64,000 bases of DNA from Membranipora membranacea (Eukaryota > Bryozoa > Gymnolaemata > Cheilostomatida > Membraniporidae), in assembly GCA_914767715.1 (NCBI GenBank), contig OU612071.1:22875681-22939680 (forward strand), read 5' to 3'. The notes under the pieces are model-generated. The model was not told where the DNA came from. It did not search any database and worked only from the letters and a program-made list of their open reading frames with translations. Below are positions 19,101-64,000 of the stretch, in pieces. Both the position numbers and the translations under genes were made by a program. How positions within the stretch are numbered: position 1 is the stretch's first letter; each line of letters begins with the position of its first letter.

Positions 19101-19494
19101 ATGCGGGGGAAGCTGAACGCGCAAGGAGGGCCCCAGCCCTTCGCAGCGTGGCCCAGATTCGATGCGGGGGAAGCTGAACGCGCAAGGAGGGCCCCAGCCC
19201 TTCGCAGCGTGGCCCAGATTCGATGCGGGGGAAGCTGAACGCGCAAGGAGGGCCCCAGCCCTTCGCAGCGTGGCCCAGATTCGATGCGGGGGAAGCTGAA
19301 CGCGCAAGGAGGGCCCCAGCCCTTCGCAGCGTGGCCCAGATTCGATGCGGGGGAAGCTGAACGCGCAAGGAGGGCCCCAGCCCTTCGCAGCGTGGCCCAG
19401 ATTCGATGCGGGGGAAGCTGAACGCGCAAGGAGGGCCCCAGCCCTTCGCAGCGTGGCCCAGATTCGATGCGGGGGAAGCTGAACGCGCAAGGAG
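10184..19494 (+). repeat. Satellite array A: 61-bp unit, about 152 copies
   Basis: The array is a head-to-tail repeat with a strict 61-base period. The first unit (10184-10245) is 62 bp because of one extra base in the GGGCCCCCGGCCC stretch. It is followed by 151 complete 61-bp units from 10246 to 19456 and a truncated unit. The unit starts with CCCAGATTCGATGCGGGGG and continues through a GCGCAAGGAGGGCCCC block to GCAGCGTGG. Only one substitution was noticed inside the array (C to A at 10883). The unit has no stop codon in any minus-strand frame and 61 is not a multiple of three, so huge spurious ORFs result. It is not a gene. Confidence 0.97.
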
Positions 19495-19503
19495 CCCTTG
19501 CGG

Positions 19504-22500: not shown

Positions 22501-25500
22501 GGAAGCACTTGCCCCCTTTTAAATGCCCAGATTCGATGCGGGGGAAGCACTTGCCCCCTTTTAAATGCCCAGATTCGATGCGGGGGAAGCACTTGCCCCC
22601 TTTTAAATGCCCAGATTCGATGCGGGGGAAGCACTTGCCCCCTTTTAAATGCCCAGATTCGATGCGGGGGAAGCACTTGCCCCCTTTTAAATGCCCAGAT
22701 TCGATGCGGGGGAAGCACTTGCCCCCTTTTAAATGCCCAGATTCGATGCGGGGGAAGCACTTGCCCCCTTTTAAATGCCCAGATTCGATGCGGGGGAAGC
22801 ACTTGCCCCCTTTTAAATGCCCAGATTCGATGCGGGGGAAGCACTTGCCCCCTTTTAAATGCCCAGATTCGATGCGGGGGAAGCACTTGCCCCCTTTTAA
22901 ATGCCCAGATTCGATGCGGGGGAAGCACTTGCCCCCTTTTAAATGCCCAGATTCGATGCGGGGGAAGCACTTGCCCCCTTTTAAATGCCCAGATTCGATG
23001 CGGGGGAAGCACTTGCCCCCTTTTAAATGCCCAGATTCGATGCGGGGGAAGCACTTGCCCCCTTTTAAATGCCCAGATTCGATGCGGGGGAAGCACTTGC
23101 CCCCTTTTAAATGCCCAGATTCGATGCGGGGGAAGCACTTGCCCCCTTTTAAATGCCCAGATTCGATGCGGGGGAAGCACTTGCCCCCTTTTAAATGCCC
23201 AGATTCGATGCGGGGGAAGCACTTGCCCCCTTTTAAATGCCCAGATTCGATGCGGGGGAAGCACTTGCCCCCTTTTAAATGCCCAGATTCGATGCGGGGG
23301 AAGCACTTGCCCCCTTTTAAATGCCCAGATTCGATGCGGGGGAAGCACTTGCCCCCTTTTAAATGCCCAGATTCGATGCGGGGGAAGCACTTGCCCCCTT
23401 TTAAATGCCCAGATTCGATGCGGGGGAAGCACTTGCCCCCTTTTAAATGCCCAGATTCGATGCGGGGGAAGCACTTGCCCCCTTTTAAATGCCCAGATTC
23501 GATGCGGGGGAAGCACTTGCCCCCTTTTAAATGCCCAGATTCGATGCGGGGGAAGCACTTGCCCCCTTTTAAATGCCCAGATTCGATGCGGGGGAAGCAC
23601 TTGCCCCCTTTTAAATGCCCAGATTCGATGCGGGGGAAGCACTTGCCCCCTTTTAAATGCCCAGATTCGATGCGGGGGAGCACTTGCCCCCTTTTAAATG
23701 CCCAGATTCGATGCGGGGGAAGCACTTGCCCCCTTTTAAATGCCCAGATTCGATGCGGGGGAAGCACTTGCCCCCTTTTAAATGCCCAGATTCGATGCGG
23801 GGGAAGCACTTGCCCCCTTTTAAATGCCCAGATTCGATGCGGGGGAAGCACTTGCCCCCTTTTAAATGCCCAGATTCGATGCGGGGGAAGCACTTGCCCC
23901 CTTTTAAATGCCCAGATTCGATGCGGGGGAAGCACTTGCCCCCTTTTAAATGCCCAGATTCGATGCGGGGGAAGCACTTGCCCCCTTTTAAATGCCCAGA
24001 TTCGATGCGGGGGAAGCACTTGCCCCCTTTTAAATGCCCAGATTCGATGCGGGGGAAGCACTTGCCCCCTTTTAAATGCCCAGATTCGATGCGGGGGAAG
24101 CACTTGCCCCCTTTTAAATGCCCAGATTCGATGCGGGGGAAGCACTTGCCCCCTTTTAAATGCCCAGATTCGATGCGGGGGAAGCACTTGCCCCCTTTTA
24201 AATGCCCAGATTCGATGCGGGGGGAAGCACTTGCCCCCTTTTAAATGCCCAGATTCGATGCGGGGGAAGCACTTGCCCCCTTTTAAATGCCCAGATTCGA
24301 TGCGGGGGAAGCACTTGCCCCCTTTTAAATGCCCAGATTCGATGCGGGGGAAGCACTTGCCCCCTTTTAAATGCCCAGATTCGATGCGGGGGAAGCACTT
24401 GCCCCCTTTTAAATGCCCAGATTCGATGCGGGGGAAGCACTTGCCCCCTTTTAAATGCCCAGATTCGATGCGGGGGAAGCACTTGCCCCCTTTTAAATGC
24501 CCAGATTCGATGCGGGGGAAGCACTTGCCCCCTTTTAAATGCCCAGATTCGATGCGGGGGAAGCACTTGCCCCCTTTTAAATGCCCAGATTCGATGCGGG
24601 GGAAGCACTTGCCCCCTTTTAAATGCCCAGATTCGATGCGGGGGAAGCACTTGCCCCCTTTTAAATGCCCAGATTCGATGCGGGGGAAGCACTTGCCCCC
24701 TTTTAAATGCCCAGATTCGATGCGGGGGAAGCACTTGCCCCCTTTTAAATGCCCAGATTCGATGCGGGGGAAGCACTTGCCCCCTTTTAAATGCCCAGAT
24801 TCGATGCGGGGGAAGCACTTGCCCCCTTTTAAATGCCCAGATTCGATGCGGGGGAAGCACTTGCCCCCTTTTAAATGCCCAGATTCGATGCGGGGGAAGC
24901 ACTTGCCCCCTTTTAAATGCCCAGATTCGATGCGGGGGAAGCACTTGCCCCCTTTTAAATGCCCAGATTCGATGCGGGGGAAGCACTTGCCCCCTTTTAA
25001 ATGCCCAGATTCGATGCGGGGGAAGCACTTGCCCCCTTTTAAATGCCCAGATTCGATGCGGGGGAAGCACTTGCCCCCTTTTAAATGCCCAGATTCGATG
25101 CGGGGGAAGCACTTGCCCCCTTTTAAATGCCCAGATTCGATGCGGGGGAAGCACTTGCCCCCTTTTAAATGCCCAGATTCGATGCGGGGGAAGCACTTGC
25201 CCCCTTTTAAATGCCCAGATTCGATGCGGGGGAAGCACTTGCCCCCTTTTAAATGCCCAGATTCGATGCGGGGGAAGCACTTGCCCCCTTTTAAATGCCC
25301 AGATTCGATGCGGGGGAAGCACTTGCCCCCTTTTAAATGCCCAGATTCGATGCGGGGGAAGCACTTGCCCCCTTTTAAATGCCCAGATTCGATGCGGGGG
25401 AAGCACTTGCCCCCTTTTAAATGCCCAGATTCGATGCGGGGGAAGCACTTGCCCCCTTTTAAATGCCCAGATTCGATGCGGGGGAAGCACTTGCCCCCTT

Positions 25501-26748
25501 TTAAATGCCCAGATTCGATGCGGGGGAAGCACTTGCCCCCTTTTAAATGCCCAGATTCGATGCGGGGGAAGCACTTGCCCCCTTTTAAATGCCCAGATTC
25601 GATGCGGGGGAAGCACTTGCCCCCTTTTAAATGCCCAGATTCGATGCGGGGGAAGCACTTGCCCCCTTTTAAATGCCCAGATTCGATGCGGGGGAAGCAC
25701 TTGCCCCCTTTTAAATGCCCAGATTCGATGCGGGGGAAGCACTTGCCCCCTTTTAAATGCCCAGATTCGATGCGGGGGAAGCACTTGCCCCCTTTTAAAT
25801 GCCCAGATTCGATGCGGGGGAAGCACTTGCCCCCTTTTAAATGCCCAGATTCGATGCGGGGGAAGCACTTGCCCCCTTTTAAATGCCCAGATTCGATGCG
25901 GGGGAAGCACTTGCCCCCTTTTAAATGCCCAGATTCGATGCGGGGGAAGCACTTGCCCCCTTTTAAATGCCCAGATTCGATGCGGGGGAAGCACTTGCCC
26001 CCTTTTAAATGCCCAGATTCGATGCGGGGGAAGCACTTGCCCCCTTTTAAATGCCCAGATTCGATGCGGGGGAAGCACTTGCCCCCTTTTAAATGCCCAG
26101 ATTCGATGCGGGGGAAGCACTTGCCCCCTTTTAAATGCCCAGATTCGATGCGGGGGAAGCACTTGCCCCCTTTTAAATGCCCAGATTCGATGCGGGGGAA
26201 GCACTTGCCCCCTTTTAAATGCCCAGATTCGATGCGGGGGAAGCACTTGCCCCCTTTTAAATGCCCAGATTCGATGCGGGGGAAGCACTTGCCCCCTTTT
26301 AAATGCCCAGATTCGATGCGGGGGAAGCACTTGCCCCCTTTTAAATGCCCAGATTCGATGCGGGGGAAGCACTTGCCCCCTTTTAAATGCCCAGATTCGA
26401 TGCGGGGGAAGCACTTGCCCCCTTTTAAATGCCCAGATTCGATGCGGGGGAAGCACTTGCCCCCTTTTAAATGCCCAGATTCGATGCGGGGGAAGCACTT
26501 GCCCCCTTTTAAATGCCCAGATTCGATGCGGGGGAAGCACTTGCCCCCTTTTAAATGCCCAGATTCGATGCGGGGGAAGCACTTGCCCCCTTTTAAATGC
26601 CCAGATTCGATGCGGGGGAAGCACTTGCCCCCTTTTAAATGCCCAGATTCGATGCGGGGGAAGCACTTGCCCCCTTTTAAATGCCCAGATTCGATGCGGG
26701 GGAAGCACTTGCCCCCTTTTAAATGCCCAGATTCGATGCGGGGGAAGC
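19504..26748 (+). repeat. Satellite array B: 42-bp unit, about 172 copies
   Basis: The array is head-to-tail with a 42-base period. Each unit begins with the same 23 bases that open the 61-bp unit (CCCAGATTCGATGCGGGGG then AAGC). It continues with ACTTGCCCCC, which is the complete unit of the next array, and ends TTTTAAATG. There are 171 complete units from 19543 to 26725 plus partial end units. Three length variants break the phase: six G instead of five at 20145 and 24219, and one missing A at 23679. The unit holds an imperfect inverted repeat, GGGGGAAG against CTTGCCCCC. Being 14 codons long it produces periodic peptide ORFs, which I regard as spurious. Confidence 0.97.
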
Positions 26749-27378
26749 ACTTGCCCCCACTTGCCCCCACTTGCCCCCACTTGCCCCCACTTGCCCCCAC
26801 TTGCCCCCACTTGCCCCCACTTGCCCCCACTTGCCCCCACTTGCCCCCACTTGCCCCCACTTGCCCCCACTTGCCCCCACTTGCCCCCACTTGCCCCCAC
26901 TTGCCCCCACTTGCCCCCACTTGCCCCCACTTGCCCCCACTTGCCCCCACTTGCCCCCACTTGCCCCCACTTGCCCCCACTTGCCCCCACTTGCCCCCAC
27001 TTGCCCCCACTTGCCCCCACTTGCCCCCACTTGCCCCCACTTGCCCCCACTTGCCCCCACTTGCCCCCACTTGCCCCCACTTGCCCCCACTTGCCCCCAC
27101 TTGCCCCCACTTGCCCCCACTTGCCCCCACTTGCCCCCACTTGCCCCCACTTGCCCCCACTTGCCCCCACTTGCCCCCACTTGCCCCCACTTGCCCCCAC
27201 TTGCCCCCACTTGCCCCCACTTGCCCCCACTTGCCCCCACTTGCCCCCACTTGCCCCCACTTGCCCCCACTTGCCCCCACTTGCCCCCACTTGCCCCCAC
27301 TTGCCCCCACTTGCCCCCACTTGCCCCCACTTGCCCCCACTTGCCCCCACTTGCCCCCACTTGCCCCCACTTGCCCCC
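26749..27378 (+). repeat. Satellite array C: 10-bp unit ACTTGCCCCC, 63 copies
   Basis: There are sixty-three perfect head-to-tail copies of ACTTGCCCCC. The array starts seamlessly inside the last 42-bp unit, which contains the same decamer. On the minus strand it reads GGGGGCAAGT repeated, placing a G5 run every ten bases. That is a strong G-quadruplex pattern, with i-motif potential on the plus strand. Confidence 0.97.
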
Positions 27379-28078: not shown

Positions 28079-28578
28079 NNNNNNNNNNNNNNNNNNNNNN
28101 NNNNNNNNNNNNNNNNNNNNNNNNNNNNNNNNNNNNNNNNNNNNNNNNNNNNNNNNNNNNNNNNNNNNNNNNNNNNNNNNNNNNNNNNNNNNNNNNNNNN
28201 NNNNNNNNNNNNNNNNNNNNNNNNNNNNNNNNNNNNNNNNNNNNNNNNNNNNNNNNNNNNNNNNNNNNNNNNNNNNNNNNNNNNNNNNNNNNNNNNNNNN
28301 NNNNNNNNNNNNNNNNNNNNNNNNNNNNNNNNNNNNNNNNNNNNNNNNNNNNNNNNNNNNNNNNNNNNNNNNNNNNNNNNNNNNNNNNNNNNNNNNNNNN
28401 NNNNNNNNNNNNNNNNNNNNNNNNNNNNNNNNNNNNNNNNNNNNNNNNNNNNNNNNNNNNNNNNNNNNNNNNNNNNNNNNNNNNNNNNNNNNNNNNNNNN
28501 NNNNNNNNNNNNNNNNNNNNNNNNNNNNNNNNNNNNNNNNNNNNNNNNNNNNNNNNNNNNNNNNNNNNNNNNNNNNNN
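28079..28578. other. Assembly gap of exactly 500 N
   Basis: This is a run of 500 N. The round number indicates an arbitrary scaffold gap (500 is used by some Hi-C scaffolders), so the true distance is unknown. It interrupts the decamer tract on its left. Sequence on the right is not satellite, so an unknown amount of the array may be missing and left and right may not be true neighbours. Confidence 0.95.
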
Positions 28579-48500: not shown

Positions 48501-51385
48501 CAATGAGCAGCCTGTTGGAGTTTGGTTTGCTAGATTTGCTAGACTTCAAAAATAATTAACGATGATGGTAGGGCACACAGAAATTGTTTGAGTGAAAGGA
48601 TTGTAAATCATATGTACACAAAGAAATAAAGTCACACTGTCTCGTGAAGCAACACGGCCAAAGTAGGCTTAAGGCTTCTCCTAGCTAACGCTTTAACTTA
48701 ACATTTTCGCTTATTTCCTTTCAATGCTCTTGCTCTCACATTGTAATTCATTGCCCGTGCCAATATCTAAAGTAAAATTCCAGTTCAGGTGAGCTTCAGT
48801 AGTGGTAAAATGATAGGGTTCACTCTGAGGGCAGACTGATGGTTATTGAGTTTCTGATATACCAGTAGGACGCTTCAGAATTTCATCGTACCTATTCGCA
48901 TATGTTAACTATCTTACCAACCACATGGATATAATATGAATTGAAGTCTTCGAGCACCTTACTGTCAAAATGAATTGTTGCTAATAATATGATCATCAAT
49001 CATCAGCTCAAGGTCTATTAAATATTCATCTGGATTTACAAGTGAAAAAGGGTTGTCACAAAGTCTCCATGCTACAACCAAAATTCTTTTGGTTAATCGG
49101 CCGTGAGAGCACCAATTAAATAACGTGAAAAAAGTGGGAGATCTAAATTACAGAAATTTCTGAAACTTGGCTATACCATTGAGCTAAGCAAAGAAAATAA
49201 TCCCACCAAAAAAAATCAATTATTTTACATGAATGGTTTAGAGGGCCCCCCAAAGAAATGTGACAGATACGGGGACAAAATTTATAGCAAGTTTGACCCC
49301 TTAAAAAATTTCACCTTGGGTGAAATAACAAAACATAACTAAGTGTATTAACTCTGTCACATGCTGGACCTTAAGTCCGTATCTTTGCCTGCAAGGCTAA
49401 TATCAACCAAGAAAGTGTCATACAGCCGACAAACCTAACAAAATAAAAAGTGTTAATTCACCTATTGAAAAATAGCTGCTTCCAATGATACCTCTCTATT
49501 GCTGCACCTTTCAGATCTCAGTTTAACCATATCAATCTGGTTTCGGTGTCAATTTGCAGTTTGCCCTCCGTTTCGGCCGCATAATTTAGTAAGAACATGG
49601 TTATAGTGGTGACTTGGTATGATGCTGTTTATACGTGAGGTGTTTCAACTGAAATGGAATAACATGACCCTTCCATTCGTCATTGATGGTGTCAAAGATC
49701 CCGACAAAGTCCCCATTTCTTTTATCTCACAGAGCATTGGACATCACATCACACAGTCTGGCGAGTTGTTCCATTGTTTGATGTTTTGTCCTCCTCTCCT
49801 TAGCAATGATGTCATAACGGGATGCAGAGAATCTGTCACTGTGTATCGCTAGGCATTTGCATAACTGAAGTAACAGCAGTTACACATGTACGTAAAGTTA
49901 TGTCTTCATTTTTCACTTTTGAGGACGTAACGCAACATATTCTGTTATCTAGTTTGTATGAGGTATATGGTTTTTGAATTCATCCAAGGGCATAGTTTAG
50001 GGGTAGGCAACGAGACTGGTAGTTCTGTCTTGGACCTGTTTTGCTGTCCTTAAAAACTTAGCTATTATTATCGATGCTTACAGGGACAATTTAGTAGGTC
50101 TGTATAGTCCATGCAAATACCGCAGACTAAACTTTATCCAAACACTTTGCTACTGATTTGTTGTCCTGCAGTGATAATAACAAGGCTAATGTTGTTTACA
50201 TAATGCTTGGCAACAAGATGTGATACTGGCCAATCAAATGGTCCTTGGGTTTTCTCCCCTTGTAAGATCTGATGCAGACGACAATGCAGACGACCAAGCT
50301 CACTAGTTTGGACTGGTACCAATTTGCAGAGGGTAAGTGAAATTTAAGTAGTGCATAAACTTTGTTCTTTTGAGGAATTTCTGGGCATATAACACTTATA
50401 ATATGCTAAACTTTCAAGTATCCCAACTCTGAATTATACACCTAGTCATTTGGAAGCTAATTCACAAGGATGGATTGGAATTCTGCGTAATAGTATCCCG
50501 CCACGTTGTAATATCACTCGATATAGCTGAAAGTTAGATGTCATTGAAGTGACTAACAGTTCATGTAGATGATACATCTCCCGATGGGCCAGTCACTTAT
50601 ACCGAATAAATTTAACTATTTAAAAATCATGATAGGTCGCTAGTCTATGACCACCCAAGTTGTAAGAACCGTAACTGCTTATATTTGGCAGTTTGATTCA
50701 TCTGAATGCATGTCTTCATATTGGCAACTCTTGCTTAAACTTAAGCGGTTATGTATTCTCATGGATTACATTAGATGTGAAGCGAGCATGCACTGGACCA
50801 CCCAAGTTGATACGGCGAAAAACAGAGAAAAGAGCTATTTTTGTGCTAAAAGACACAAATCATTTGTTTTTAGTAGACTCCTCTCTGCACCCACAATATC
50901 AACTTGCTCTCAACTCACGACAACATATTTAGTTATAATATACGTTTCATTCAGAAAATTTATTTCACTTAATTGTTAATAATAAGAATGGTAATAGTAG
51001 AAATCAATCCAAGCATAGAAAGATGATCATTACAATCTCCATTTGAGAATAAGATACAATCCCATATGAATAATAGTAGATGATATCAGGAACAAAGCGT
51101 GTAACTTTGGTTTGATAGCGGGTGATAGATAAAAAGCGGCTTTCCTTGTAAGAGTCATAGTTGTCACTTCATGCTCATTGAGATGATAACTTCAAATTAC
51201 CACATGTCCTACAAGGAATTTCATTACCCACCAACTTTTCTTGTGTAATTACAAGACACTACTAAATTTGCACAGCAGATAGCAGGCTTATCATTAAATT
51301 ATATTCCATATTGTTTCTTATGCCTAAGATAACCATTTCTGCGTCATCTTGTAGATTTTATCCAGTAGGGCCTAACCGTTGCAAG
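45546..51385. other. Long AT-rich intergenic stretch, no gene supported
   Basis: It contains a CA-rich microsatellite (about 45698-45728) and scattered frames of 60-110 codons (for example 46681-46959 minus, 49619-49852 plus, 50647-50979 plus). None has a recognisable domain, repeat partner or splice context. Nothing else was seen in these 5.8 kb. Confidence 0.45.
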
Positions 51386-54300
51386 TACTACTACTACTAC
51401 TAGAGGGACCTTGACCTTAATGGCGGCTAGCCAGTTTTAAATCCAGCTGAAAATTTTAAAGAGGTTTTAGCATAATTTTAACCCGAAATTCAAGTGTTTT
51501 AGAGGAACAGCTTTTATAAAACATTCCCTAAGTCTCCCTGAACCCCATCCCTCGTCATTCTACGCTTCTACTGTCTGACACTGAGAGATATTCTTCATTG
51601 TTCAGCAGCTGCTGAATCCAAGATGGCCACCATTCAGCCTGATCCTGTTTTAACATCATCATAAATAACAGAACTCAGCTCATCTGTTTACTTGTGTGGC
51701 ACATGTAAGCACCCATTTGGAGACTGGGGTGAACCTGGTGTACTATGTGAGATATGTGACGTTTGGTACCACCTATACTGTCAAAGAATTCCATCTCATG
51801 AATATTCAAAACTAGGTCACGACAGTGTTAACTGGATCTGCTCACATTGCAACACCAGCCACTATTCAACAACATCCCCAGACTTACTTCAAGTAGATAA
51901 TCAATCTCAATGTAACCATGACTCGTGTGTAGAAGATAAATCATACCACACCTCAACCGAAACTATTGACTCTCTGGACTCTGCCAGTAAGCCAGTACAC
52001 ACATCCTCCCCAACCAGACCTAGGCTACCGCCCGCACGGGGACGGCCACTGCGCTTCATTAATATCAACTGCCAATCACTAGTAAGGAAAAAAGGGGCTT
52101 GGCAAAATCTCATCTCATCCACTAAGCCAGATGTCATTATTGCGACTGAGACTTGGCTGGATCCAAGCATTGGCGATGCTGAACTGGAATCTGAGTCCTA
52201 TACCATTTATAGAAAAGACCGCGCAACATGCGGCGGTGGTGTTCTGATTGCTGTGAACAACTCCATCATAAGCACAGACGCTACGATCACCACCTCAGCT
52301 GAAATAACATGGGTGAAAATAAACTGCAAAACCCATCGCGACATTTACATCGCTGCATGTTACCGTCCCCAAGTATCTGACACCAACTTCAATACCCAAC
52401 TACAGTCATCACTCAACCATATACTAGGGAAGAAGAGACCTAGCTCTGTAATTGTGGCCGGGGATTTTAACTACCCTGGTTGGGACTGGTCAAGTAACAG
52501 TCTTAAAACAGGAGCCCAACATAGAGCTCTTCACTATGAGTTTGCTGACATCCTGGACGATTTTGGGCTCACCCAGATTGTCACTGAGCCGACCCGTCTC
52601 CATAACACTCTAGACCTCGTCTGCACAAACATTCCAGATCAAATAAACAGAGTCAAAGTCATCCCTGGCATAAGTGACCATGCAGCTGTGTTCTTTGAGA
52701 TCAATGTCACTGCTATTAACAGAACACAAAAACTCAGAAAAATATGGTTGTACAGACACGCTGATTGGCAGGGTATGACAAAATACCTCGCACCCCGCCT
52801 CACCAGCATAGATCAGCAATACCACACAAGTCCTGACGAACTATGGACTGATATCAAAACACTAATCCTGGAGGCTATGGAGATCTATATCCCTCGGCGG
52901 AAACCCAAGCGTAAGGATTCCTGTCCCTGGATAACAAAAGACCTCCATAAGCTGATAAAGATCAGGAATAGACTTTACAAGCGTGTCAAGAAAAGAGGTT
53001 GCCCTCGTCTGGAGGCAAGGTATCTTTTATATTGTGCCTTAGTAAAGAAGCAACTGAGGACAGAACATGCCGACTATGTGCACCGCTTGTTTACCGAAGA
53101 AGATAAATCCCAACGAAACATCTCAAAACGCTTCTGGACCTATATCAAACACAGACGCTCATCTGCTGTCTCTAATATAGGCCCTCTGAAGAAAGGAAGT
53201 GCTCTGACTACCACTGCTAAGGAGAAGGCCAACCTGCTGAATCAGCAATTCATGTCAGTCTTCTCCAAGCCAACGCCAAGAATAGACTACCTGACATTGA
53301 CCCTTAAATCAGTCATGCCCAACATCTCCATATCCACTAACGGCGTCCACAAGCAACTTAGAACTCTAAACCCATACAAGGCCACGGGCCCAGACGGCAT
53401 TAGTCCCAGGGTGCTCCGAGAGCTGGATGACGTACTTACCGCACCACTATCGAGTCTTTTCCAACTCTCACTCGACAAAGGGTCTGTTCCACTGGACTGG
53501 AAGAAGGCCATAATATCGCCAATCTTCAAGAAAGGGGACAAGTGCTTACCATCCAACTACAGGCCTGTTAGTCTTACCTGTGTAGTCAGCAAAGTTCTAG
53601 AGCATATTGTCACCAGTCAACTAACATCTTATGCTGAGTCACAGGGACTGCTCTTCAAGAACCAGCACGGCTTTCGGGAAGACCACGGTTGCGAACGCCA
53701 ACTCATTGAACTAGCCAATGATATCGCCAAAAACCTTGACAAAGGGATCGAGACAGATGCTTGTGTGTTGGACTTCTCAAAAGCCTTTGACAAAGTTAAC
53801 CACAGCAAACTATTACTGAAGTTAGCAACGTACGGAGTGTCCTTTCAAGTGTTATCATGGATTGATGACTTCCTTATGAACAGGACCCAGAAGGTTGTAG
53901 TTGAAGGAGAAGAGTCAGACGTCTCCCCTGTCACCTCAGGAGTTCCTCAGGGTTCAGTGATCGGCCCAACTCTTTTCTTGTACTACATCAATGATATGCC
54001 CGACAACATCAAGTCAACAGTACGATTGTTTGCTGACGACACAATTGTATACTCTGATGCAATCAACCACCAAACACTCCAAGATGATTTGAGCAGGCTT
54101 GAGCAGTGGGAGAATCAGTGGGACATGGAGTTTCATCCCTCGAAATGTGAGCATATTTGTTTCACAAGGAAGAAACGCCCATCAGAGAACTCCTAAAAAC
54201 TCCACAACATCGAGATCCCCCGCACCAACTGCACCAAATACCTTGGTGTGTATGTTGACTCAAAACTAACCTGGCACGAACACATAGCCAAAATCACTAG

Positions 54301-54959
54301 TAAGGCAAATGCCACCCTAGCCTTCATACGACGTAATGTCCTCACAACATCAGAAGACATTCGCTCCACCGCCTACAAACAGCTAGTGAGACCAGTACTC
54401 GAGTATGCTTCCTGCGCTTGGGACACTCTTACCCAGACTGTAGAGACCAAACTCCAAGCAGTTCAGCGTCGCGCAGCCCGGTTTATCTGTGGCATCCGGC
54501 GCAGCGACAGGAAAACCAGCACCACAGGTCTTCTCTCAAAGCTTGACCTTCAACCACTGGATGACCGCCGTAAGTGTAGGCGACTGCAGGTCTTTCGCAC
54601 CTACCACTTTAATGCTCCTCACATCATCAATGAACATGTGTCTAGATCAACACACCACTCCAGCAGACGCCATGCACAGCAGTATTTCATTCCATCTACC
54701 AACACTCTGCACTATCGCCGGTTCTTTTTTGTTAGAACTGCCAAAGACTGGAACTGTCTACTGCCTGGTTGCCCACTGTTAACAGCCCCTGCCCCGAACC
54801 CCGGTTAGATGTAAAGCTGTTCCTTATTGGTTTACCGGTAAATGACCTGGAAACGTAAAACGATTCATCAGTTTTTAACGTTCCTGAAGTCACGACGCTG
54901 AAGTCGGCGCTAGGAGCTAAGAATCATCAGGTGAGACATCAGGTGAGACATACTACTAC
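51386..54959 (+). mobile_element. Near full-length non-LTR retrotransposon (Jockey/CR1-like group)
   Basis: The element comprises about 220 bases of 5' UTR, a single long ORF and a short 3' UTR ending in two copies of an ATCAGGTGAGAC-type unit. It is bounded by (TAC)5 at 51386-51400 and (TAC)3 at 54951-54959. The TAC runs could be the target duplication, a microsatellite target, or a 3' tail. It lies directly upstream of the 280-bp repeats and the PHD/P-type genes in the same orientation. Confidence 0.75.
51623..54808 (+). pseudogene. LINE polyprotein: PHD finger, AP endonuclease, reverse transcriptase; two nonsense codons
   Basis: From the ATG at 51623 one frame of 1,062 codons runs to the TAG at 54806-54808. 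It is interrupted only by TAA at 51662-51664 (codon 14) and TAA at 54194-54196. Domains by residue: a PHD finger at about 25-76 (CGTCKHPFGDWGEPGVLCEI start, WYHLYC, WICSHC). Next is an APE-type endonuclease at about 144-360 with NINCQSL, the ATETWLD acidic site, AGDFNYPGWDW and a SDH motif. Then comes reverse transcriptase with YKATGPDGIS, SNYRPVSL, GVPQGSVIGP and the catalytic LFADD at about 802-806. Last is a C-terminal region with KYLGVYVD and a WNCLLP-like end. The enzyme nicks target DNA and primes reverse transcription there. PHD fingers are known in CR1-like LINEs. Both lesions are single codons, so inactivation is recent or the stops are assembly errors. The clade cannot be fixed by eye. 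Confidence 0.88.
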
Positions 54960-54966
54960 ATCTCTC

Positions 54967-55607
54967 ACATCTCTGTTATTTGTTGTAAGTATCTGTACCA
55001 CCTTAACTTTCACTCACTCATCATAATTGGCTCACCTGCAAGAAATAAATTGTTTCATAGTTATCATCACTATTTCTTGTAATATAGCCTGGGCTTATAT
55101 CAAATCGAGACTTGATTAACTAATTTGAAGCTATATGACATTCAGAGAATTGTAATGAACTCACTGTCTGACTCTTTTATTCTGTGTTACAGATTTTGTA
55201 CCGTTGCCTGTTGCCGTATCCTGTTACTGACGCCGTTCTCTTTCGCACATCTCTGTTATTTGTTGTAAGTATCTGTACAACCTTAACTTTCACTCACTCA
55301 TCATAATTGGCTCACCTGCAAGAAATAAATTGTTTCATAGTTATCGTCACTATTTCTTGTAATATAGCCTGAGCTTATATCAAATCGAGACTTGATTAAC
55401 TAATTTGAAGCTATATGACATTCAGAGAATTGTAATGAACTCACTGTCTGACTCTTTTATTCTGTGTTACAGATTTTGTACCGTTGCCTGTTGCCGTATC
55501 CTGTTACTGACGCCGTTCTCTTTCGCACATCTCTGTTATTTGTTGTAAGTATCTGTACAACCTTAACTTTCACTCACTCATTATAATTGGCTCACCTGCA
55601 AGAAATA
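54967..55607 (+). repeat. 280-bp tandem repeat resembling a duplicated exon-intron module
   Basis: Two full 280-bp copies (54967-55246 and 55247-55526) and a partial third (to about 55607) are nearly identical. Each unit contains an acceptor-like TTTTATTCTGTGTTACAG, then 72 bases, then TTTGTTGTAAGTATC with a consensus GTAAGT donor. The 72-base exon-like pieces (55193-55264 and 55473-55544) are multiples of three and open in two frames. The module sits upstream of the 55,962 ORF, whose own leader begins after TTATTTGCAG at 55914. The repeats may therefore be alternative or repeated 5' exons of that gene. Confidence 0.75.
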
Positions 55608-55961
55608 TATAGTTAAAAGTAGTAATCCCTATAATCATAATTTCTGCCTTTCTTAGGAGTTACCCTCTCTAAAATTATTATGTTCAAAGAGCGGTCAACT
55701 CCCAAACAAGAAAATACACCGCTCTGTTATACCAGGGAGTTTGGGACCCAACTCCCTGGTTATACCAGCTGCGCACTCCTGTAAAACGCTCACTGCATAA
55801 TTATCTCTGCTCTCATCAAATACAATAGAAATATTTTCTACAGGGACAGTGAGCAAATGACCATATTTTTATGAAATACTTCATAGTATCTTATTCATTA
55901 TTTGCAGACAACAGAAACAACAGAAAATCAGAAAATCAGAAATCTCTCAAGGTGAATAGAC
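55608..55961 (+). promoter_or_regulatory. Putative intron and 5' leader of the downstream ORF
   Basis: AT-rich sequence ending in an acceptor-like TTCATTATTTGCAG (ending 55914), then a 47-base A-rich leader to the ATG at 55962. No promoter element could be identified. Confidence 0.3.
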
Positions 55962-56885
55962 ATGTTGGAGTTCAACATTACCTTCCTAAACGAGTTCATC
56001 GCAAAAAACAACCTTGTTACCACCTCAGATCATGATGTTGTTCAATTATACAACAAAATTATCCAAAAGATCCGAACACTTGAGTGTAAACAGAATGATA
56101 AGACACTCAGTAAGGTTATGTGGTTTTTGCGGGAACCAGATATGGAAATATATACCTTCTTCACTAAATGCATTTCACTTACACATAACAATCAAAACAA
56201 TAATGACCACTCTTCATATACCTTCTTACCAAATCTGCGTGCTGCATTCTCTAGCCTCGTCCTTGCTCTAATTCATCCTGCTCTATCAAAAGCTCAAACA
56301 AATCAACCTTCTTCATCAGAGACGAAACATCTATTTACACCCGTCGCATTTGAAGATCTACCCTCTGACCAAGCTGATAGATTGTCTTGGATCAGTGGCT
56401 GGGTTCTTATGCGATGCCGACAAAACAAAAAATCTCTCATTCCATCGGTTGAATGCCTTGGTAAAGACCAACAGGATGCCAATGGTAAGTTCTCTGTTCT
56501 CTCACATGCACCTTACCTCAAATTCTTCTACAAGCTCTCAAATTTTATCTTTGAAAAATTGAATATGGAAAATTGTAAACAACTAACCTCTCAACTCGCA
56601 AACCACATTATCACCGATATCAAGTCTCACCATCCCCTTCATGTTCATTTCAAAGAGCTCTTCCCACCTCATTTCACCAGTCAAACCATCACCCTTCTGT
56701 TGCAGGAAATGTCGCAGCTGACTATGAAGTCAGCTGTCAATCAATTCCTCAACGACAACTCACTGAAACCAAAAAAACAAAGCTTTGCCTTACGCGTCAC
56801 CCTCTCTGTTGAATCACAATCATCTCCTTCCACATCTGCATCCACCATGCCTGCTCATCATCATCTAAACGGAAATCATCTATAG
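55962..56885 (+). CDS. Hypothetical protein, 307 aa, possibly transposon-encoded
   Basis: The frame is intact from the ATG at 55962 to TAG. The protein is soluble-looking, largely helical by composition, with no signal peptide or membrane segment. Its C-terminus is Ser/Thr-rich (SVESQSSPSTSASTMPA) and His-rich. Around residues 130-150 it has AFEDLPSDQADRLSWISGWV. Later come SHAPYLKFFYKLSNFIFEKL and a region ending VNQFLND. This order loosely recalls the C-terminal part of P-element-type transposases (an IAGY-like motif, then a helical tail), but the resemblance is weak and is inference only. A PHD finger is encoded in the overlapping -1 frame just downstream. The gene lies between the LINE and the P-type transposase gene, all in the same direction. 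Confidence 0.6.
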   Translation: MLEFNITFLNEFIAKNNLVTTSDHDVVQLYNKIIQKIRTLECKQNDKTLSKVMWFLREPDMEIYTFFTKCISLTHNNQNNNDHSSYTFLPNLRAAFSSLVLALIHPALSKAQTNQPSSSETKHLFTPVAFEDLPSDQADRLSWISGWVLMRCRQNKKSLIPSVECLGKDQQDANGKFSVLSHAPYLKFFYKLSNFIFEKLNMENCKQLTSQLANHIITDIKSHHPLHVHFKELFPPHFTSQTITLLLQEMSQLTMKSAVNQFLNDNSLKPKKQSFALRVTLSVESQSSPSTSASTMPAHHHLNGNHL

Positions 56886-57073
56886 TAAAAATATCAAAAT
56901 ATAAAAAGACAAAAAGATTTGACTGTACCAAAGGATGCAAAAGCAGTTGTAGCGATTGGGTGCAGTGTAGCAGGTGCGATGGGTGGTATCATTTAGTGTG
57001 TGTTGGTATGGTTGCTAGGGATGTGCCAGATGGGGACTGGTTTTGCAGCAAGTGCACAAATATAGAATTGTAA
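56813..57073 (+). CDS. PHD finger encoded in the -1 frame at the 3' end of the 307-aa ORF
   Basis: This frame is open from 56813 (after a TGA) to TAA at 57071-57073 and overlaps the 307-aa ORF by 73 bases. It lacks its own ATG before the domain. It reads a Ser/Lys-rich linker (SSSSKRKSSIVKISKYKKTK) and then a PHD-type Cys/His array. The array starts CTKGCKSSC, continues WVQCSRCDGWYHLVC and ends with a final DWFCSKC pair. PHD fingers bind histone H3 tails, often methylated Lys4. The most likely product is a C-terminal extension of the upstream ORF reached by a small intron, by frameshifting, or through a one-base assembly error. No classical slippery heptamer was seen in the overlap. Confidence 0.65.
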   Translation: MTIISFHICIHHACSSSSKRKSSIVKISKYKKTKRFDCTKGCKSSCSDWVQCSRCDGWYHLVCVGMVARDVPDGDWFCSKCTNIEL

Positions 57074-57138
57074 ATGATTGTTTTTTTTACTATTATATAA
57101 TAATTTGACTACATTTTTTTATGTTTTTAGAATAAAAC

Positions 57139-60100
57139 ATGGAAAACCATATATACCACCAGCCAATAATCATACTCTCTCGAAAACTGTCGATTACAAT
57201 AACACATGTAAAGTATGGAAGTCACACGGCAGTTGTGCGAAATGGTCTCCTAGAAGGACAAAAAACCATATCTCAGTGGTTTCACCTGCGCGTGAAACAA
57301 CTTCTGCCGGTCAAGGCTAGGAAAGCTGGTGAGCATTTAGAAAATCTGATATTCAAAACAATCATCAACATCAATTTGATATAATTATCTATTCTCAGTT
57401 CATTAAAGTCAATTTGGGCAAATCTTGGGCTAAGAAGTTGTCTTCTCTTATTGTTGAAATTTGGTGGCTCATTTGCAGTATAGAGTTATCACCCCATCTA
57501 TCTATCTGTGTAAAACATTTTAGTTTCAAGCATGTGGATAGACTGTTTCACAGAGTAAAGGGATTCAGAGAAAATTTTTTAACAATAGTCAAGGAAAGAG
57601 TTTTTTACTCCTTGGTCAAGGTACCTGCGAGCTTTGCATCAAGGGGAAAGTTATGGGAAGCTTGATGCCAAAAACTCCTTTCATCTATTTGTCAGAATTA
57701 TAGGGTTCTGGAGAATGAACTGAATTCAAAGTTCTTGATTACAGTAAAATATAGAATATGCAGGCTCTCCCGTAAAAAACTTCTCTTTGTACAGCCTTAC
57801 TCCACAATTAGACATGAAGTTTTATGCTTAAATTACACCTAACTATCCTAGCTAAATCGATACGGTGGGTATAGCTAGGAAGGCAGTATTGTGGCAGTTT
57901 TTACAATAGGATTAACTATTACAATCGTTGAATGATGCTGCCACAATGTACCCTTGGTCTGTGCAATCATTGAACCTTAAATTTATCCAAAAGGCCTCAT
58001 ATCAAATGTGTCTGCGGTCCATCGTCTACTGGGGTTTGGTTGGCACCCAGGTGTGCGCCGACCTGCCTGCAAACAGAGAGCAACCTGGCGCAGATATTGT
58101 GGCCTGGCCACTAAGGCAACGAATTTCGCCGCCTATGCTCCGGGATTTGGCTTGTGACAAGACATCTGATTTAAATCAACCTTCAATTTTAATCAGTCTT
58201 GAGACACAAAGTTTATCCTCAGGTTTTGATATTCTAATATTACATTGCCTTTAATTTGGAAAAGATAAACAAGGCACAACAGTAACAAATTCTTTCCCTG
58301 TAATGAAACACAGAGACTGCAATACACTGGTTGTTTACAAATAAGATTTTCTTGAGGGATTAGAAAATTTACTGTGAGAAAACAATGTCTGTAATTGCTC
58401 TAACTGATATCTTCATCCAGCAGAGGTCTCAATTGTACTTGGATCGTTTCAATGCACTGCGTGAAGAATTGCTTCCAATTTTGTTTGGAGGCCATCTCAG
58501 ATTTGTTGTTTATTGAGGCAGCCCACCTGTTTGGCTAACCGAATCCTCAAAAGTAACAACATTATAACTTGTTGCATTATAGATGCAGTCCCAGGGCACG
58601 ATTTTTAAACAAATGTACAAATTCAACCGTAACATGAATGCTGTCAATGGTTATTTCAGGACTGCAATTCCTTAATGGTGATAGATACACCAAGGTCGAA
58701 CATACAGAAACCAGCTCACTGAAAATGCAGCAGAATATTTCACATAGAATATCATGTGTGTTATTAAGGGTGAGCCCTCCAGACACACAGTTATCATAAT
58801 CCTATACGCATCCAGCATAGTTACATTAGCGTTTTTCAATAATAAAAATATTGGGATGACATTCGAGTAAAATTTAATATCAAACGGGTGTAGTTCGAAA
58901 ATGCTATCATTGAGCAGTATCCACTGAAAAAGCCAAATCCAAACCATGTTTCGAAATATTAATAATATTAATTATTTTGAGGTCTATAGTCATTCTGATA
59001 GAATTTGATGGGTGACTGATGGGTCACCACGATCTATACTGAAAACTTATATCAACCAACAGAAATATTCTTTTGTTTAAGTTCAGTATAGCATCTCCAT
59101 TGTCATTTGTAAATTGCTCCACTCCTTTGATAAAAGGCAATTAGAATTTGTTTGAAACTGTACACAATGGCATAGAAACTACAAATATATAGGCTCTTTG
59201 CACTGCCTTGCGCAACATTGCCACTGCACTGATGGATGAAATAAACACCGTAATGAAAAAGTAAATCGCAATTTTAAATATGTCAAAAAAATATTTCAAA
59301 CATGCCCTCAAAAGCTCATTTAGATAATGTAATGAACTGATGCTCCAAAAAAAACCAGATCTCTGTGAGTTACCATGTAGAAGTGTAGTTCTGCCCAAAC
59401 AGAAAAACACGAACTTGGAGATTTTTTGTCAGATTTGGATTTTTTTGAAGAAAGAGATAAATGAATAGTTAGCTGATTGACTAACGATCCAGGTGACCAA
59501 ATGTGGTTATTCTGAATTAAAAACTGTAGGAAGGAGATAGCTTTTGGAAAAGTAAGGAGGAGATAACTACAACTGAGCATTTTTGACTTTAAATAACTGA
59601 GTTGTATTGACATTAACAGTTGATTGTTGAAATTATTAATCTTGCGAAGAGAAACCAAACCACTGAATTGTAAATAATACTGCTAATTGAGGTATAAGAC
59701 AGCTGCAAATACATAATCAGTAATCACCAAAGCATAGATTTGATGCAAAATACAATCATGGCAAAAAATTTGCAAGACAAGCACAGTTTGCTAACTAGTG
59801 GTATTATCTTGTAGGTTACATTAGAAGAGGTCTCCTAAGAATAAATGGGCTGACATTAAAAGAAATAGAGGCAAGGAAAGAAAATAGAAAATGCAGGAAA
59901 ATCATATACCAAACATACCGCAACATTATCGACACCCAATTCCAAATAAAGATGGACACATCAATTCATCACAACCAGCTTCACATCGGATTTATGGAGA
60001 GAAGCCTGGAGGGAGAGGTGCGACTGCGGTCTGCAGGTTGCAGAGCTCCAGTAGGACCAAACTTACTCTGTAAACAATGTAAAACAATACTAACACTGAT

Positions 60101-63100
60101 TAAAAATATAGGACGAAGAAAAACCCCGCCAGAACCGGAAATAGAACAAGAAGCTCCAGAAGCTCAGGGAAATGAGATCTTTCAAAATCTCAAGCTCAGG
60201 CTATCCAACCCCATCTGTCGGTGGACAGGCTGTGAGGAAGCAGAGTATGCCTTTGGCACTGTGCAAGATCTCACCAGTCACATCTCAACTCACGTTGACC
60301 TTCAGCTTGACACTGCTCCGATCCTGAAGGAGTATGTTTGTAGATGGGAGAATTGTGGGAAGATTTATCAGAAGGACAAGCTGCTTTTCACACACATTCA
60401 GGATATACATACAGGTGAGAAACCCATACATCTAACATCGAGACAATATTTAAGCTAAAATTCAATCAATTTCAACCAAGAATTCAAGCTCACTTCTTTT
60501 TGGCTCTAACCTCACTTAAATATTATTGTTCTTGATACATACCTGCAGCTGTGACTTGTGCCATCATTGTCTCTCTTTAATATGTGTCGGGATAATCTGC
60601 TGTAGCTACACTTTGATTCATTACGTGTCAGTCCCATCACAAAAACACCAGCTGAAAAAGAGAATTTATTTGTTTATATAGGCTGCACTCAGGATCAGTT
60701 CCGTTTGGATCTGATCGAAGACCAGATCAAAAACTTCGATCTTGTGGCAAGACAGAGAAGGTGGAGTGTGGGGACAATCAAGTTTTGTGTTGGAGCCCTC
60801 AGAAGAGGTATGTTGGTGCCAGCTTTGCTAATTTATCTGAATTGTTAAAGGAAGTGACTACTAGGCTTGTATGAGTCTTAAAAAAATGGAGGAAAACATA
60901 ATGCATCCATTGAAGCTTTCACACTGGACATACGATGACTTTTTCACACTGGACATACGATGACTTAAGTAGTAAAATGCTCAGTGCACTCGACTTCGTT
61001 AAAGGTTTGTTTTGTCTTCGTGAAAAAATTGATCATTGCATCCAATTAAAAATGTGTTAGGCCTATGTGTTTTAAATTTTTTTCAAATGAAGTATACTGT
61101 ACTTTAATCAAGGTGAACTTGATAAGCTAAGGAAAGCTGGGATGTGTCTCCCTAGTTCCTCAACTGTGAGGAGATATAAGAGTTATGGGCACAGCACCAG
61201 TGGTTGGGACGATAAGATAATAAAAGATCTCAGGGACACCATGACTTTGCTTCATCTTCCACCAAAGGCCAGATATGGTATCGTCTGTTTTGATGAGGTT
61301 GAGGGGAAAGAGGGAATCGTGTTCAATCCTCACACAGGAGATTTAGTTGGTAAGTGGTCAATCTCTAACTGATGTGCTTCATATTGATATTCATACCACA
61401 TATAGCTAGTCCAAGTTTTGCAAAAACAACACAATGTTCCGTGCTATCACAAGTCATGTATCATTTAACTATAATGAACCACCATATAATAGCTACCAGT
61501 TCTAACAGATATCACAGTCATATCAGATATCACACCTTGGTTGGTTGATAATGTTTAAAACTGATGTTTCAGGTTTTTGTGAAGAGTCGAGTGAACTTGG
61601 ATCACATGTTCTCCAGTTCTTCTGGACATGCGCATTTACGAACTTCAGTTATCCTCTCGCCTACTTTGTAACAACCACAGTCAGTTATATTGACATTCAC
61701 AAATACTTCTGGGAAGGTGTCCGTCTGCTGATGCAGAATAACCTCTGCATCATGGCTACCATCTTTGATGGTTCACCTGCCAACAGAAAATTTCAGGTAA
61801 GCATGATGTATTGATTGTTTTGACTGGAGAATTAATTCAAAATAAAATTGCATGTAAAATTGTTGAAGTCAAGCTTGTAATATTGTATGATGCTTTAAAC
61901 TGGTTCCTTTGGTGTGTGAAGCTCAAGATTATTATTTTGAACTCTTATCATATAGGATATCATCACCACTGGATCAGAAAGCCACCTGGCATTCAACATC
62001 ATGGCCGAGAAGACGGAGTTTATCATCGTCATATCCGACCCCCCTCACTTGCTCAAGAAGCTGAGGTACGTAACACACATATTAGAATATCACCCATCAG
62101 TTTATTGATCCAAAGTTTGAGAAAACAGAGGGTTTAAGGAATCATTTCCACAAGGCCATAAGGGAGTCTTACTTTAGCGCATCATATTAAGATTTAAAAA
62201 TATTCTATTTATTTTACAGAAACGCTCTGAATAACAGTAGAACTGAGAAAATATCTACACGCCACATGATCAGGGAAGGCGAACGGCTGGTATGGTCTCA
62301 TGTAGAAGCCATCAAGGATGCCCCACGAAGTATCGGGTGGAGCATGTCCAGGATACCCAACAATGCTGTGTACCTGAATAACTTCTCCAAAATGAGAATC
62401 CCACTCATGGAAAAGGTGAGTCTTTTTTTCTGCCCGAATAGGTGTCGACTGTCGAAGGATATATAATAATATAGTAAAGAGAAAACAAGAACAAATTTAA
62501 AATTGAACATTTATCTTTGAATTTAGCAATGTATGAGCCAGTCTTGAATCCAATTATATACAAGAGGTTTGAATATTCATTTTGATTTTCAGGTCATCAA
62601 TGAACAGGTCGCAAATGAGCTAGAGAAGGCTGGATACGAACAGACAGGTCTCTTTGTTAGAATGTGTGCACATCTGTGGGGTATCATGAATACCAGAACG
62701 GTGGTGAAAAAAGACGAACTACCACAGTTCAAGCGGGTAAGCAGCTTTTCACCAAAGCAGAACACATGCAATCTTTCTTCTTCACAGACAACAATAAAGA
62801 CCAGCTCAAAATCTTTTTCTGCTAGCTCCTAAAACACACTTCATTATTCACAGACCTAATAAATCAGGACATTTTAACATATTTTTACTCCAAGTCGATA
62901 ATTATCTTACCATTTCAAGTTGATATTCATTTGGTTATAGAAACTCCAGCCCATACTGGACTACTTCACTGCCTGGGATCATGACAGATTTGACCCACAC
63001 AGCCCTAGAGTGCCAAGCCCATCTGATGTGCCACCTGTAACAACGCTGAGTGATCTAAAGACAGCCTGCAGAGGATTTGCTGCCCTGTGTGACAAAGCTG

Positions 63101-63597
63101 TTGAGCTAGGTCATGGACTAATTCCTCACCGAGTTAGCCAAGACGTGTTGGAGAACTGGTTCGGTCACCAGAGGCAGGCTTGTGGATCCAACAGCAACAT
63201 GACAGGTCAGCGCTATAACATTGCAAAAATATTAGTCAACTGCTATTGAAAGAGGCAGCTATATTATGCCAGGTGTGGTGTTCCATTTTAGAAAATCGAA
63301 TTAGATAACCAGTGCTTCGGTTAATATGATCAATCAATGTATCGCATAAAGTTTGACAGTGTGCCTACATCACAGATTGAATAGGAAAGTGAAACGTCCC
63401 CAGCATCTATATTTGTAACAGGAAACTCAATAATTCCTAATTCTCATTTATTTACAGTCTCAACATATGGTAGCAACACAGTTAACATTCAATTTATGAA
63501 TGTTGCTGCAGGGAGTTATCACCAGGACTGTGACCAGCTTGTAGCCAGGCCACGTGAGAGCAACCGGAAGCTGCCGTGGATCACTCTTGATGAGTAG
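57139..63597 (+). CDS. P-element-like transposase protein with two C2H2 zinc fingers, 10 exons, 743 aa
   Basis: Exons: 57139-57328, 59815-60414, 60682-60807, 61113-61349, 61573-61796, 61956-62065, 62220-62415, 62593-62736, 62941-63205, 63458-63597. All introns are GT-AG, phases agree, and the 2,232-nt total is one open frame. The ATG has a good context (AAAACATGG) eight bases after a TTTTTAG acceptor. C2H2 fingers: C198/C203-H219/H223 and C239/C244-H257/H262. The RNase H-like P-type core follows. It has RWSVGTIKF (from about 291) and LPSSSTVRRY (about 318), then CFDEVEG with D366, ATIFDGSPANRKF with D450, SDPPHLLKKLRN (487-497) and SQDVLENWFGHQRQ with E680. D366, D450 and E680 are the candidate D-D-E catalytic residues. 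The fingers stand where P elements and THAP9 have a THAP DNA-binding domain. The role is DNA transposition, or sequence-specific DNA binding if domesticated. Intron 1 is swollen by element E. The protein ends 63 residues after E680, shorter than usual, so the 3' end may be incomplete. Confidence 0.85.
57394..59601. mobile_element. Element E, copy 2 (2,208 bp) inside intron 1
   Basis: It begins CTCAGTTCATTAAAGTCAA and ends with the complement of CTCAGTTATTTAAAGTCAA. TT lies on both sides (57392-57393 and 59602-59603). It matches the copy at 4.9-8.7 kb closely at both ends and in the middle but lacks the extra block present at 7549-7920. It shows the uninterrupted order of segments from before the local duplication. 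Subtracting it leaves a host intron of about 278 bases, the size of the other introns of this gene. A short plus-strand ORF ending KVPASFASRGKLWEA and a minus-strand start MASKQNWKQFFTQCIETIQV are shared with copy 1, but no transposase is evident. Confidence 0.72.
60931..60966 (+). repeat. Short tandem repeat in intron 3
   Basis: CACTGGACATACGATGACTT occurs twice in tandem with a 23-base period (about 60931-60966). It is noncoding and near the middle of the intron. Confidence 0.7.
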
Positions 63598-64000
63598 CCG
63601 TGAGTATGGTTTAAAAGAGGCGGCCTCGAGAGGCGACGAAGGGTGCATGAGGGCGTTAGACTCCCCCGTTGTCGCTGAGGTGGCGAGCCAGCCGGAAGTA
63701 GGGGAGGGAGGGAAACCGCTGAGCGAACTGAAACCGGAAGGGGGGCTCCCGTGTCAGGTTTCACGTGCCGCCCCCTGTAAGTACTCAAATAGCATTGATA
63801 TGACCATCATTTGGCAATGAAGGCAAGCAATCAAAGGGCTTGTGATTGGATTAATTGAACATTGATGACATTATTCAAGTAATAGCATATAAATGCTATT
63901 TGAGGAAACTGATGGACACATATCTGTATGTACCTGTTTGTTGTTGTATCTCTTGCAGTATCGCTGGCACATACATGGCAATCATCACAGTTTATGACAG
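63598..64000 (+). other. GC-rich 3' flank with possible further exon
   Basis: Bases 63600-63780 are much more GC-rich than their surroundings. They end in a strong donor (CCCCCTGTAAGTACT). An acceptor TATCTCTTGCAG follows at about 63947-63958 and opens into unbroken frame to the window edge. Within exon 10 a GTGAGAG donor-like site at about 63553 would also join to that acceptor in phase. The transposase gene may thus continue beyond the window by alternative splicing. Otherwise this is 3' UTR or an inserted element. Confidence 0.35.

Follow-up and report, generated by a model that had tools for sequence, protein, structure and literature searches.

Is the ten-exon transposase gene at 57139-63597 (+) in this stretch of Membranipora membranacea DNA a former transposon gene now kept by its host, or part of a transposon that moves, and what stands in its protein where a THAP domain would be? 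P elements are a textbook transposon, and the original prediction for this stretch described an intact P-element-type transposase gene with C2H2 fingers instead of THAP, either a recently active element or a domesticated gene. We examined the gene within the whole stretch of 64,000 nucleotides (C7:22875681-22939680, hereafter the window) and searched the genome of the same species (339.3 Mb) for its relatives. With a probability of roughly 0.9, the gene belongs to a mobile cut-and-paste transposon of the P superfamily, and to a lineage of that superfamily whose transposases carry a tandem CWCH2 zinc-finger pair in the place that THAP occupies in Drosophila P and THAP9.

The transposase gene and its catalytic core

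The splicing model consists of ten exons that join into 2232 nt, or 743 codons with a single stop at the end, and all nine introns have GT-AG borders. Exon 1 (57139-57328) is the least secure. It is followed by exon 2 (59815-60414), which encodes a cysteine cluster (C139/C149/C152) and both zinc fingers, and whose start is backed by a relative on C4 with a match beginning exactly at residue 64. The region that aligns with the P transposase core in the profile alignment starts in exon 3 (60682-60807). Exons 4 (61113-61349), 5 (61573-61796), and 9 (62941-63205) contain the candidate catalytic residues D366 (61292-61294), D450 (61767-61769), and E680 (63151-63153), respectively, placed by alignment with the Drosophila P structure 6p5a. 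Between them are exon 6 (61956-62065), exon 7 (62220-62415), which holds a putative insertion resembling the GTP-binding domain (GBD), weakly matched in Pfam, and exon 8 (62593-62736); exon 10 (63458-63597), which has a counterpart in the relative described next, ends with the stop codon. All exons are on the plus strand.

As an independent check of the exon model we used a related transposase gene in the stretch C1:36378001-36388000 (referred to as L048), whose splice sites were picked by hand guided by tblastn matches, two of its donors (GTAGGA and GTTGGT) being weak. Its spliced product is uninterrupted over 803 aa and 40% identical to the window protein, and the gene likewise has ten exons, with all nine intron phases as in the window gene. 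Because a relative of only 40% identity shares the exon number and the phases, the window frame is more than a product of chance. The unbroken 743-codon frame originally predicted was itself reproduced by splicing the window exons.

Exon 1 is open in two frames, and the alternative one would make it the tail of a PHD finger protein encoded just upstream. In L048 the PHD protein ends before the counterpart of exon 1, and that exon opens with a similar ME..., so the transposase frame of the original prediction is favored. A direct comparison of the first exons of the two genes gives 25% likeness across 61 columns, and 16 of 1000 shuffles score at least as well. We take exon 1 to belong, weakly, to the transposase in that frame.

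The window protein matches PF21787 (TNP-like RNase H N) in Pfam at 3.5e-11, above the cut-off. A profile of ten transposases, the window protein included, aligns with residues 133-559 of 6p5a, the Drosophila P transposase (4.1e-45); in this alignment D366, D450, and E680 pair with D230, D303, and E531, which we take to be the catalytic residues of Drosophila P, and D528 of Drosophila P pairs with window D677 (read by eye). An AlphaFold2 (AF2) model of the related protein P0004, of low overall quality (mean pLDDT only 51.8), finds its best PDB match in the Drosophila P transposase (E 5.6e-15, TM 0.36 (query)/0.58). By these alignments the window gene encodes a P-superfamily transposase with a P-type RNase H core and a D-D-E triad. 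The core and the three catalytic residues of the original prediction thus stood up, and so did the suggested comparison with P-type and C2H2 profiles, in which both PF21787 and the finger family Zap1_zf1 are above their cut-offs.

Ends, copies, and mobility of the element

The exons at 57139-63597 (+) stood as predicted, but they are part of a longer element whose ends the original prediction did not find. When this copy and a second one on C8 were extended outward, their common blocks ran from 49985 to 891 bp past the end of the window, so that the inverted repeats and target duplication, which the original prediction had proposed to look for outside 55-64 kb, were indeed located there. The left terminal inverted repeat (49985-50018, +; from end comparison) consists of CAAGGG, an 8-nt spacer CATAGTTT, and AGGGGTAGGCAACG...; the right one, on the other strand, consists of CAAGGG, T, and AGGGGTTGGCAACG, and ends at C7:22940571, beyond the window. 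The ends are therefore asymmetric: the spacer separating CAAGGG from the inner AGGGG block measures 8 nt on the left vs. 1 nt on the right. The left 7-bp target-site duplication (TSD), ATTCATC, is at 49978-49984, and its right copy directly follows the element end (in L025). The whole C7 element measures 14,907 bp, or about 9.1 kb minus two nested insertions, and the part inside the window, defined by the blocks common with the C8 copy, covers 49985-64000 (+).

The second full-length copy, on the minus strand of C8, is 97% identical to window 55600-64000 bar a stretch in intron 1, and is flanked by a different duplication (TCTGTGA). It spans 12.9 kb, with other extra sequence. Genome-wide there are 17 exact occurrences of the 21-base right end and 20 when up to 3 mismatches are allowed, vs. 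4 for a reversed control pattern. From 25 left-end and 20 right-end matches, 16 further left-right pairs were assembled, which together with C7 and C8 form the sample for counting TSDs; seven left-end and two right-end matches had no evident partner and were left out. Fifteen of these pairs are 2.0-3.1 kb apart and one is 17.7 kb apart, and the left spacer is identical in 15 of the 16, being altered in L073. A 7-bp duplication is exact in 15 pairs and agrees at 6/7 positions in the other, which makes 17 exact duplications among the 18 elements. The interior was read in one pair (L083, 2.7 kb), which lacks any frame reaching 100 codons and matches the right 680 bp of the full element at 77% identity; most of the remaining pairs are likewise taken, from their spacing, to be non-autonomous.

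These copies bear directly on domestication, the other origin that the original prediction had allowed. A host gene would fit the long, intact transposase frame with its many introns, and also the pN/pS of 0.52 between C7 and C8, which is borderline (14 synonymous and 26 non-synonymous differences, uncorrected counts, Fisher p 0.051). However, a transposon under selection only during its jumping phase should likewise show a ratio near 0.5. The two copies differ at 40/2231 exon and 36/1981 intron positions, and this equal divergence of 1.8% is what neutral decay after a fairly recent jump would produce. The frame is moreover lost in the C8 copy, through a 1-bp loss in exon 2 and the loss of the splice donor after exon 4. 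Inverted ends and TSDs flank the window copy as well as the full-length copy elsewhere, and at least 59 more exon-level transposase matches lie outside C7 and C8, a number of them with internal stops (79 exon-level matches were found in all among the best 60 of 237 candidates). We therefore regard a domesticated host gene as highly improbable. The alternative of a recently active element is backed by the ends, the TSDs, and the second copy, and the element is best described as mobile DNA, apparently recently mobile.

The finger pair and the lineage that carries it

The GLI-like C2H2 fingers of the original prediction proved to be a tandem CWCH2 pair at residues 198-262 (60216-60410, +), identified by Pfam, profile, and pattern. 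Finger 1 reads C-R-W-T-G-C ... H219 ... H223 and finger 2 C-R-W-E-N-C ... H257 ... H262, so both show the C-x-W-x2-C that is the tandem CWCH2 (GLI/ZIC-type) pattern. Pfam Zap1_zf1 matches two stretches of the window protein (1.2e-6, above the cut-off). At the finger stretch, the ten-sequence profile matches GLI (2gli, 1.3e-17), ZIC3 (2rpc, 2.7e-10), and structures of Zap1 and AEBP2, though ordinary C2H2 proteins such as WT1 match it too. These proteins share with the window protein a finger pair with a tryptophan between the two cysteines of each finger, but GLI, ZIC, and Zap1 are regulators of transcription, chromatin, or homeostasis, and no transposase is among the 11 tandem CWCH2 (tCWCH2) gene classes named in the excerpted text of PMC2837044.

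The absence of a visible THAP domain was likewise confirmed, with no THAP (PF05485) in the window protein at E<=1 by Pfam. THAP is readily found in this genome, with at least 150 matches (the best 150 of 283 candidates scored), for example beside the P-type core of the copy L008, and the 150 matches listed include none within the element on C7 or C8, nor any from the stretches of L048 and its decayed sister copy L049. A scan of the element for the C2CH pattern, which recovered the THAP of L008, gave one hit; this overlaps the companion frame ORF1 (described below) in another frame, and for that reason we read it as chance. We therefore place the element in the P superfamily but not in its THAP-bearing branch (P, Galileo, THAP9).

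From its position, the finger pair is likely the DNA-binding module with which the transposase finds the element ends. The unusual module that had been predicted is hence present, and its binding of DNA is put forward by analogy of place. A different reading, to which we give a smaller though still considerable chance, is that the pair serves structure or protein contact, and that the ends are recognized by a helix-turn-helix (HTH)-like part, by the cysteine cluster, or by the exon-1 region; fingers instead of THAP would then be a mere matter of position. Partial text of PMC2837044 describes tCWCH2 pairs as a finger-finger contact unit and proposes roles beyond direct DNA binding, and the upstream cluster C139/C149/C152 is conserved too, with a counterpart in the protein P0002, which has no finger pair. 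On the other hand, both tryptophans and the zinc ligands are kept in 7/7 aligned lineage members across large divergence, with the caveat that the decayed L049 does not keep them, and Drosophila P finds its ends via an N-terminal zinc module (PMC7776569, in part). We thus continue to prefer end recognition by the fingers as the likely function.

The window protein is not alone of its kind, a point the original prediction had missed. Besides L048, a protein search with the window and L048 proteins as queries, fingers included, which scored the 7991 candidates with the most shared words, yielded five proteins (P0004-P0008) with E-values of 3.3e-92 to 2.4e-77 and 31-33% identity to the window protein. 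PF21787 is present in 5/5 of them and THAP, at E<=1, in 0/5. The CWCH2 pair is present in the window protein, L048, and P0004-P0008, and not in P0001 or P0002. In a tree of the cores of 13 sequences, cut after the fingers and rooted at the midpoint, the seven CWCH2 members are on one side of a branch with support 92/98 (92% of 200 bootstrap trees), and the other side holds P0001, P0002, and four copies from the Membranipora membranacea genome. P0002, which lacks the pair but has the cysteine-cluster motif and likewise a short C-terminus, is the next branch out under this rooting. Of the four genome copies, L008 is the one that was checked for THAP, and carries it; it falls into another group (100/98). 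A single acquisition of the fingers would be the simplest reading of this tree. The genome is rich in several kinds of P-type cores (at least 134 matches), some of them long and intronless, e.g., 762 codons at C11:7308354. We found no description of a C2H2 P transposase in the literature searched, which did not cover Repbase, and pattern-based scans gave no relatives of P0003 (an ORF1-PHD protein, see below) or P0007 in viral contigs, nor of P0003 in prokaryote genome contigs. In another stretch, L041 on C9, beside an ORF1/transposase relative, a proline-rich repeat frame (PPQIPD...) occupies positions 2521-3252 after the cysteine-cluster region, at about the finger position.

Several observations weigh against the reading of a mobile P-superfamily element with a CWCH2 lineage of its own. 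The exon splicing is predicted from genomic DNA. Exon 1 appears to be the weakest-supported exon, with no tblastn match outside C7 and C8, and a full-length alignment leaves it unpaired with exon 1 of L048. PF21789 (1.3e-4) and PF21788, the GTP-binding insertion domain (1.4e-3; 19.4 bits vs. a cut-off of 24.8), are below their cut-offs in the window protein, the latter being above it in 4/5 of P0004-P0008. In phmmer against the PDB, the window protein alone matches no P transposase chain at E<=1 and only C2H2 proteins, with GLI best (E 0.064). That P0004-P0008 carry fingers is partly by design, given the finger-bearing query; among the lineage members, the third catalytic residue is comparable only in the window protein, L048, and P0004, since P0005-P0008 stop short of it or diverge there. 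L049 has lost a cysteine in each finger, and the pair is tied to the element ends by position rather than via an experiment or motif. Neither full-length copy is wholly open, with the companion frame broken in the window copy and the transposase broken in C8, and for L048, which has both genes open, the 10 kb retrieved yielded no element ends.

Among known systems, the Drosophila P element (6p5a, 6pe2) is alike in its RNase H core with D-D-E and a multi-exon gene, and the putative GBD-like insertion would be a further likeness. Its inverted ends have an unequal left and right arrangement (excerpts of PMC7776569), which the spacer difference in the bryozoan element recalls. The bryozoan element differs from it in having the CWCH2 pair with no THAP found, a second gene with a PHD finger, a 7-bp instead of an 8-bp TSD, and a length of about 9 kb instead of 2.9 kb. 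Galileo, a P-superfamily transposon of Drosophila, shares the P-type transposase and the 7-bp duplications, found in most of its copies according to partial text of PMC4168063, but bears THAP and has inverted repeats of unusual length (PMC3688188, in part). THAP9 and the THAP-bearing P-type copies such as L008 have a similar catalytic core; they differ in their N-terminal THAP, and L008 also in its group in the tree, which covers L008 but not THAP9.

The ORF1-PHD gene and other contents of the element

Upstream of the transposase gene, on the same strand, is a companion gene that the original prediction had also missed. It consists of ORF1 (55962-56885, +; 307 aa in the window copy) and a PHD finger (56936-57055, +; PF00628, 9.2e-8, above the cut-off), which are in different frames in both C7 and C8 through different small indels. 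The predicted intactness hence holds for the transposase frame but not for this gene, which has a frameshift after ORF1 and ahead of the PHD finger. In L048 the two parts form one 356-aa protein, and P0003 is the same ORF1-PHD fusion, probably from another organism since its best match in the Membranipora genome is only 63% identical.

ORF1 has relatives at ten loci besides C7 and C8 (three PHD-only matches on C6, C4, and at C1:6943233 were left out of the count), the least similar of them being 24% identical to the window ORF1. In 9/10 of them a same-strand transposase match lies downstream at a distance of up to about 10 kb (C1:36380 kb, C2:21567, C2:21217, C9:20190, C9:20293, C10:2326, C2:32261, C2:32149, and C3:30090); the exception is a fragment at C2:32184536, about 29 kb from the nearest same-strand match. 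The nine loci are not independent: those on C1 and at C2:21567 are 92-96% alike in DNA, the frames on C10 and at C2:21217 are nearly the same, and the pair on C9 likewise resemble sister copies. A PHD finger adjoins ORF1 in 7/11 ORF1 places examined. As several transposase loci have no ORF1 match, the link between the two genes appears to be common rather than universal.

ORF1-PHD may instead be a passenger, i.e., a captured host gene or an unrelated frame outside the transposition machinery, which we consider rather unlikely. Its role in transposition is a prediction; ORF1 has no Pfam match above the cut-off and no kelch match, the AF2 model of ORF1-PHD (mean pLDDT 46) is too poor to search with, and besides the transposase loci that have no ORF1 match, the C4 copy (L084) has no ORF1 between its left end and the transposase. 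Against this, the order from ORF1 to transposase on one strand recurs in C7, C8, and the nine other loci despite the low identities, and ORF1 and PHD share one frame in L048 and P0003. The preferred view is therefore of a gene that belongs to the element. ORF1 may also be the missing C-terminal domain of the transposase, split off as its own gene. A motif 'I-[AS]-G-W / V-A-G-Y' is common to ORF1 and the C-terminal region of P0001. A comparison of five ORF1 with two C-terminal rows by hhalign, however, gave E 0.07 and a probability of 0.8%, and comparing single sequences in four cases did not improve on this, which leaves the idea as a lead only.

The two nested insertions, both absent from the corresponding sites of the C8 copy, are not part of the element. 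At 51403-54950 (+, approximate ends) is a long interspersed nuclear element (LINE) whose frame, interrupted near 54196, encodes an N-terminal PHD finger, an endonuclease, and a reverse transcriptase (PF00078, 119 bits). It is one of the broken transposons that had been noted nearby, and sits in a TAC repeat within the element. Of the first intron of 2486 bp, 2208 bp (57394-59601) are a separate transposon, whose ends begin with CTCAGTT and which has a duplication of about 2 bp (TT); 65 other pieces of the genome match it with 79-99% identity, often in the form of two overlapping pieces. Tandem repeats of 280 bp at 54963-55614 (+; from self-comparison and the C8 copy) do belong to the element. 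Each unit has, by eye, an exon-like short stretch between acceptor-like and donor-like sites, and the units are possibly repeated leader exons or promoters. More of them are present in the C8 copy, and L048 also has repeats upstream of its ORF1. Elsewhere in the window, near-perfect tandem satellite arrays (10182-27378; spacing about 61 bp, then about 84 bp; about 99% self-identity) precede a stretch of 500 N (28079-28578).

The pairing of a DDE transposase gene with a second gene that encodes a PHD finger recalls the RAG1L-RAG2L transposons, in which, according to excerpts of PMC7204232, the second gene most often ends in a PHD finger. The RAG-like transposons have a RAG/Transib core, a 5-bp duplication, convergent genes, and a kelch RAG2L; the bryozoan element has a P core, 7-bp duplications, genes on the same strand, and an ORF1 with no kelch match. 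The parallel is a loose analogy rather than kinship. By that analogy, the PHD protein may most simply be viewed as a chromatin-reading partner. We tentatively propose, as a possibility well short of the favored reading, a distinct two-protein P lineage in which a CWCH2 transposase has replaced THAP and an ORF1-PHD protein that reads histone marks steers or licenses transposition, in parallel to RAG1/RAG2.

In P transposase, the N-terminal zinc module finds the ends and an HTH domain helps pair unlike ends, as described in part of PMC7776569. By the same logic, the bryozoan transposase would recognize its asymmetric ends via N-terminal zinc modules (the cysteine cluster and/or the finger pair) together with an HTH-like part, and would pair one left with one right end, after which the RNase H core would cut and join the ends, inserting the element with a 7-bp stagger. 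ORF1-PHD would act in trans, either bringing the complex to marked chromatin or keeping it off.

If a C2H2 lineage indeed performs P chemistry, the end-recognition part of the P machine would be swappable. A linked PHD gene would likewise provide a second case, besides the RAG-like transposons, for how a transposase gains a PHD partner. Both points are directly testable with material from one sequenced species.

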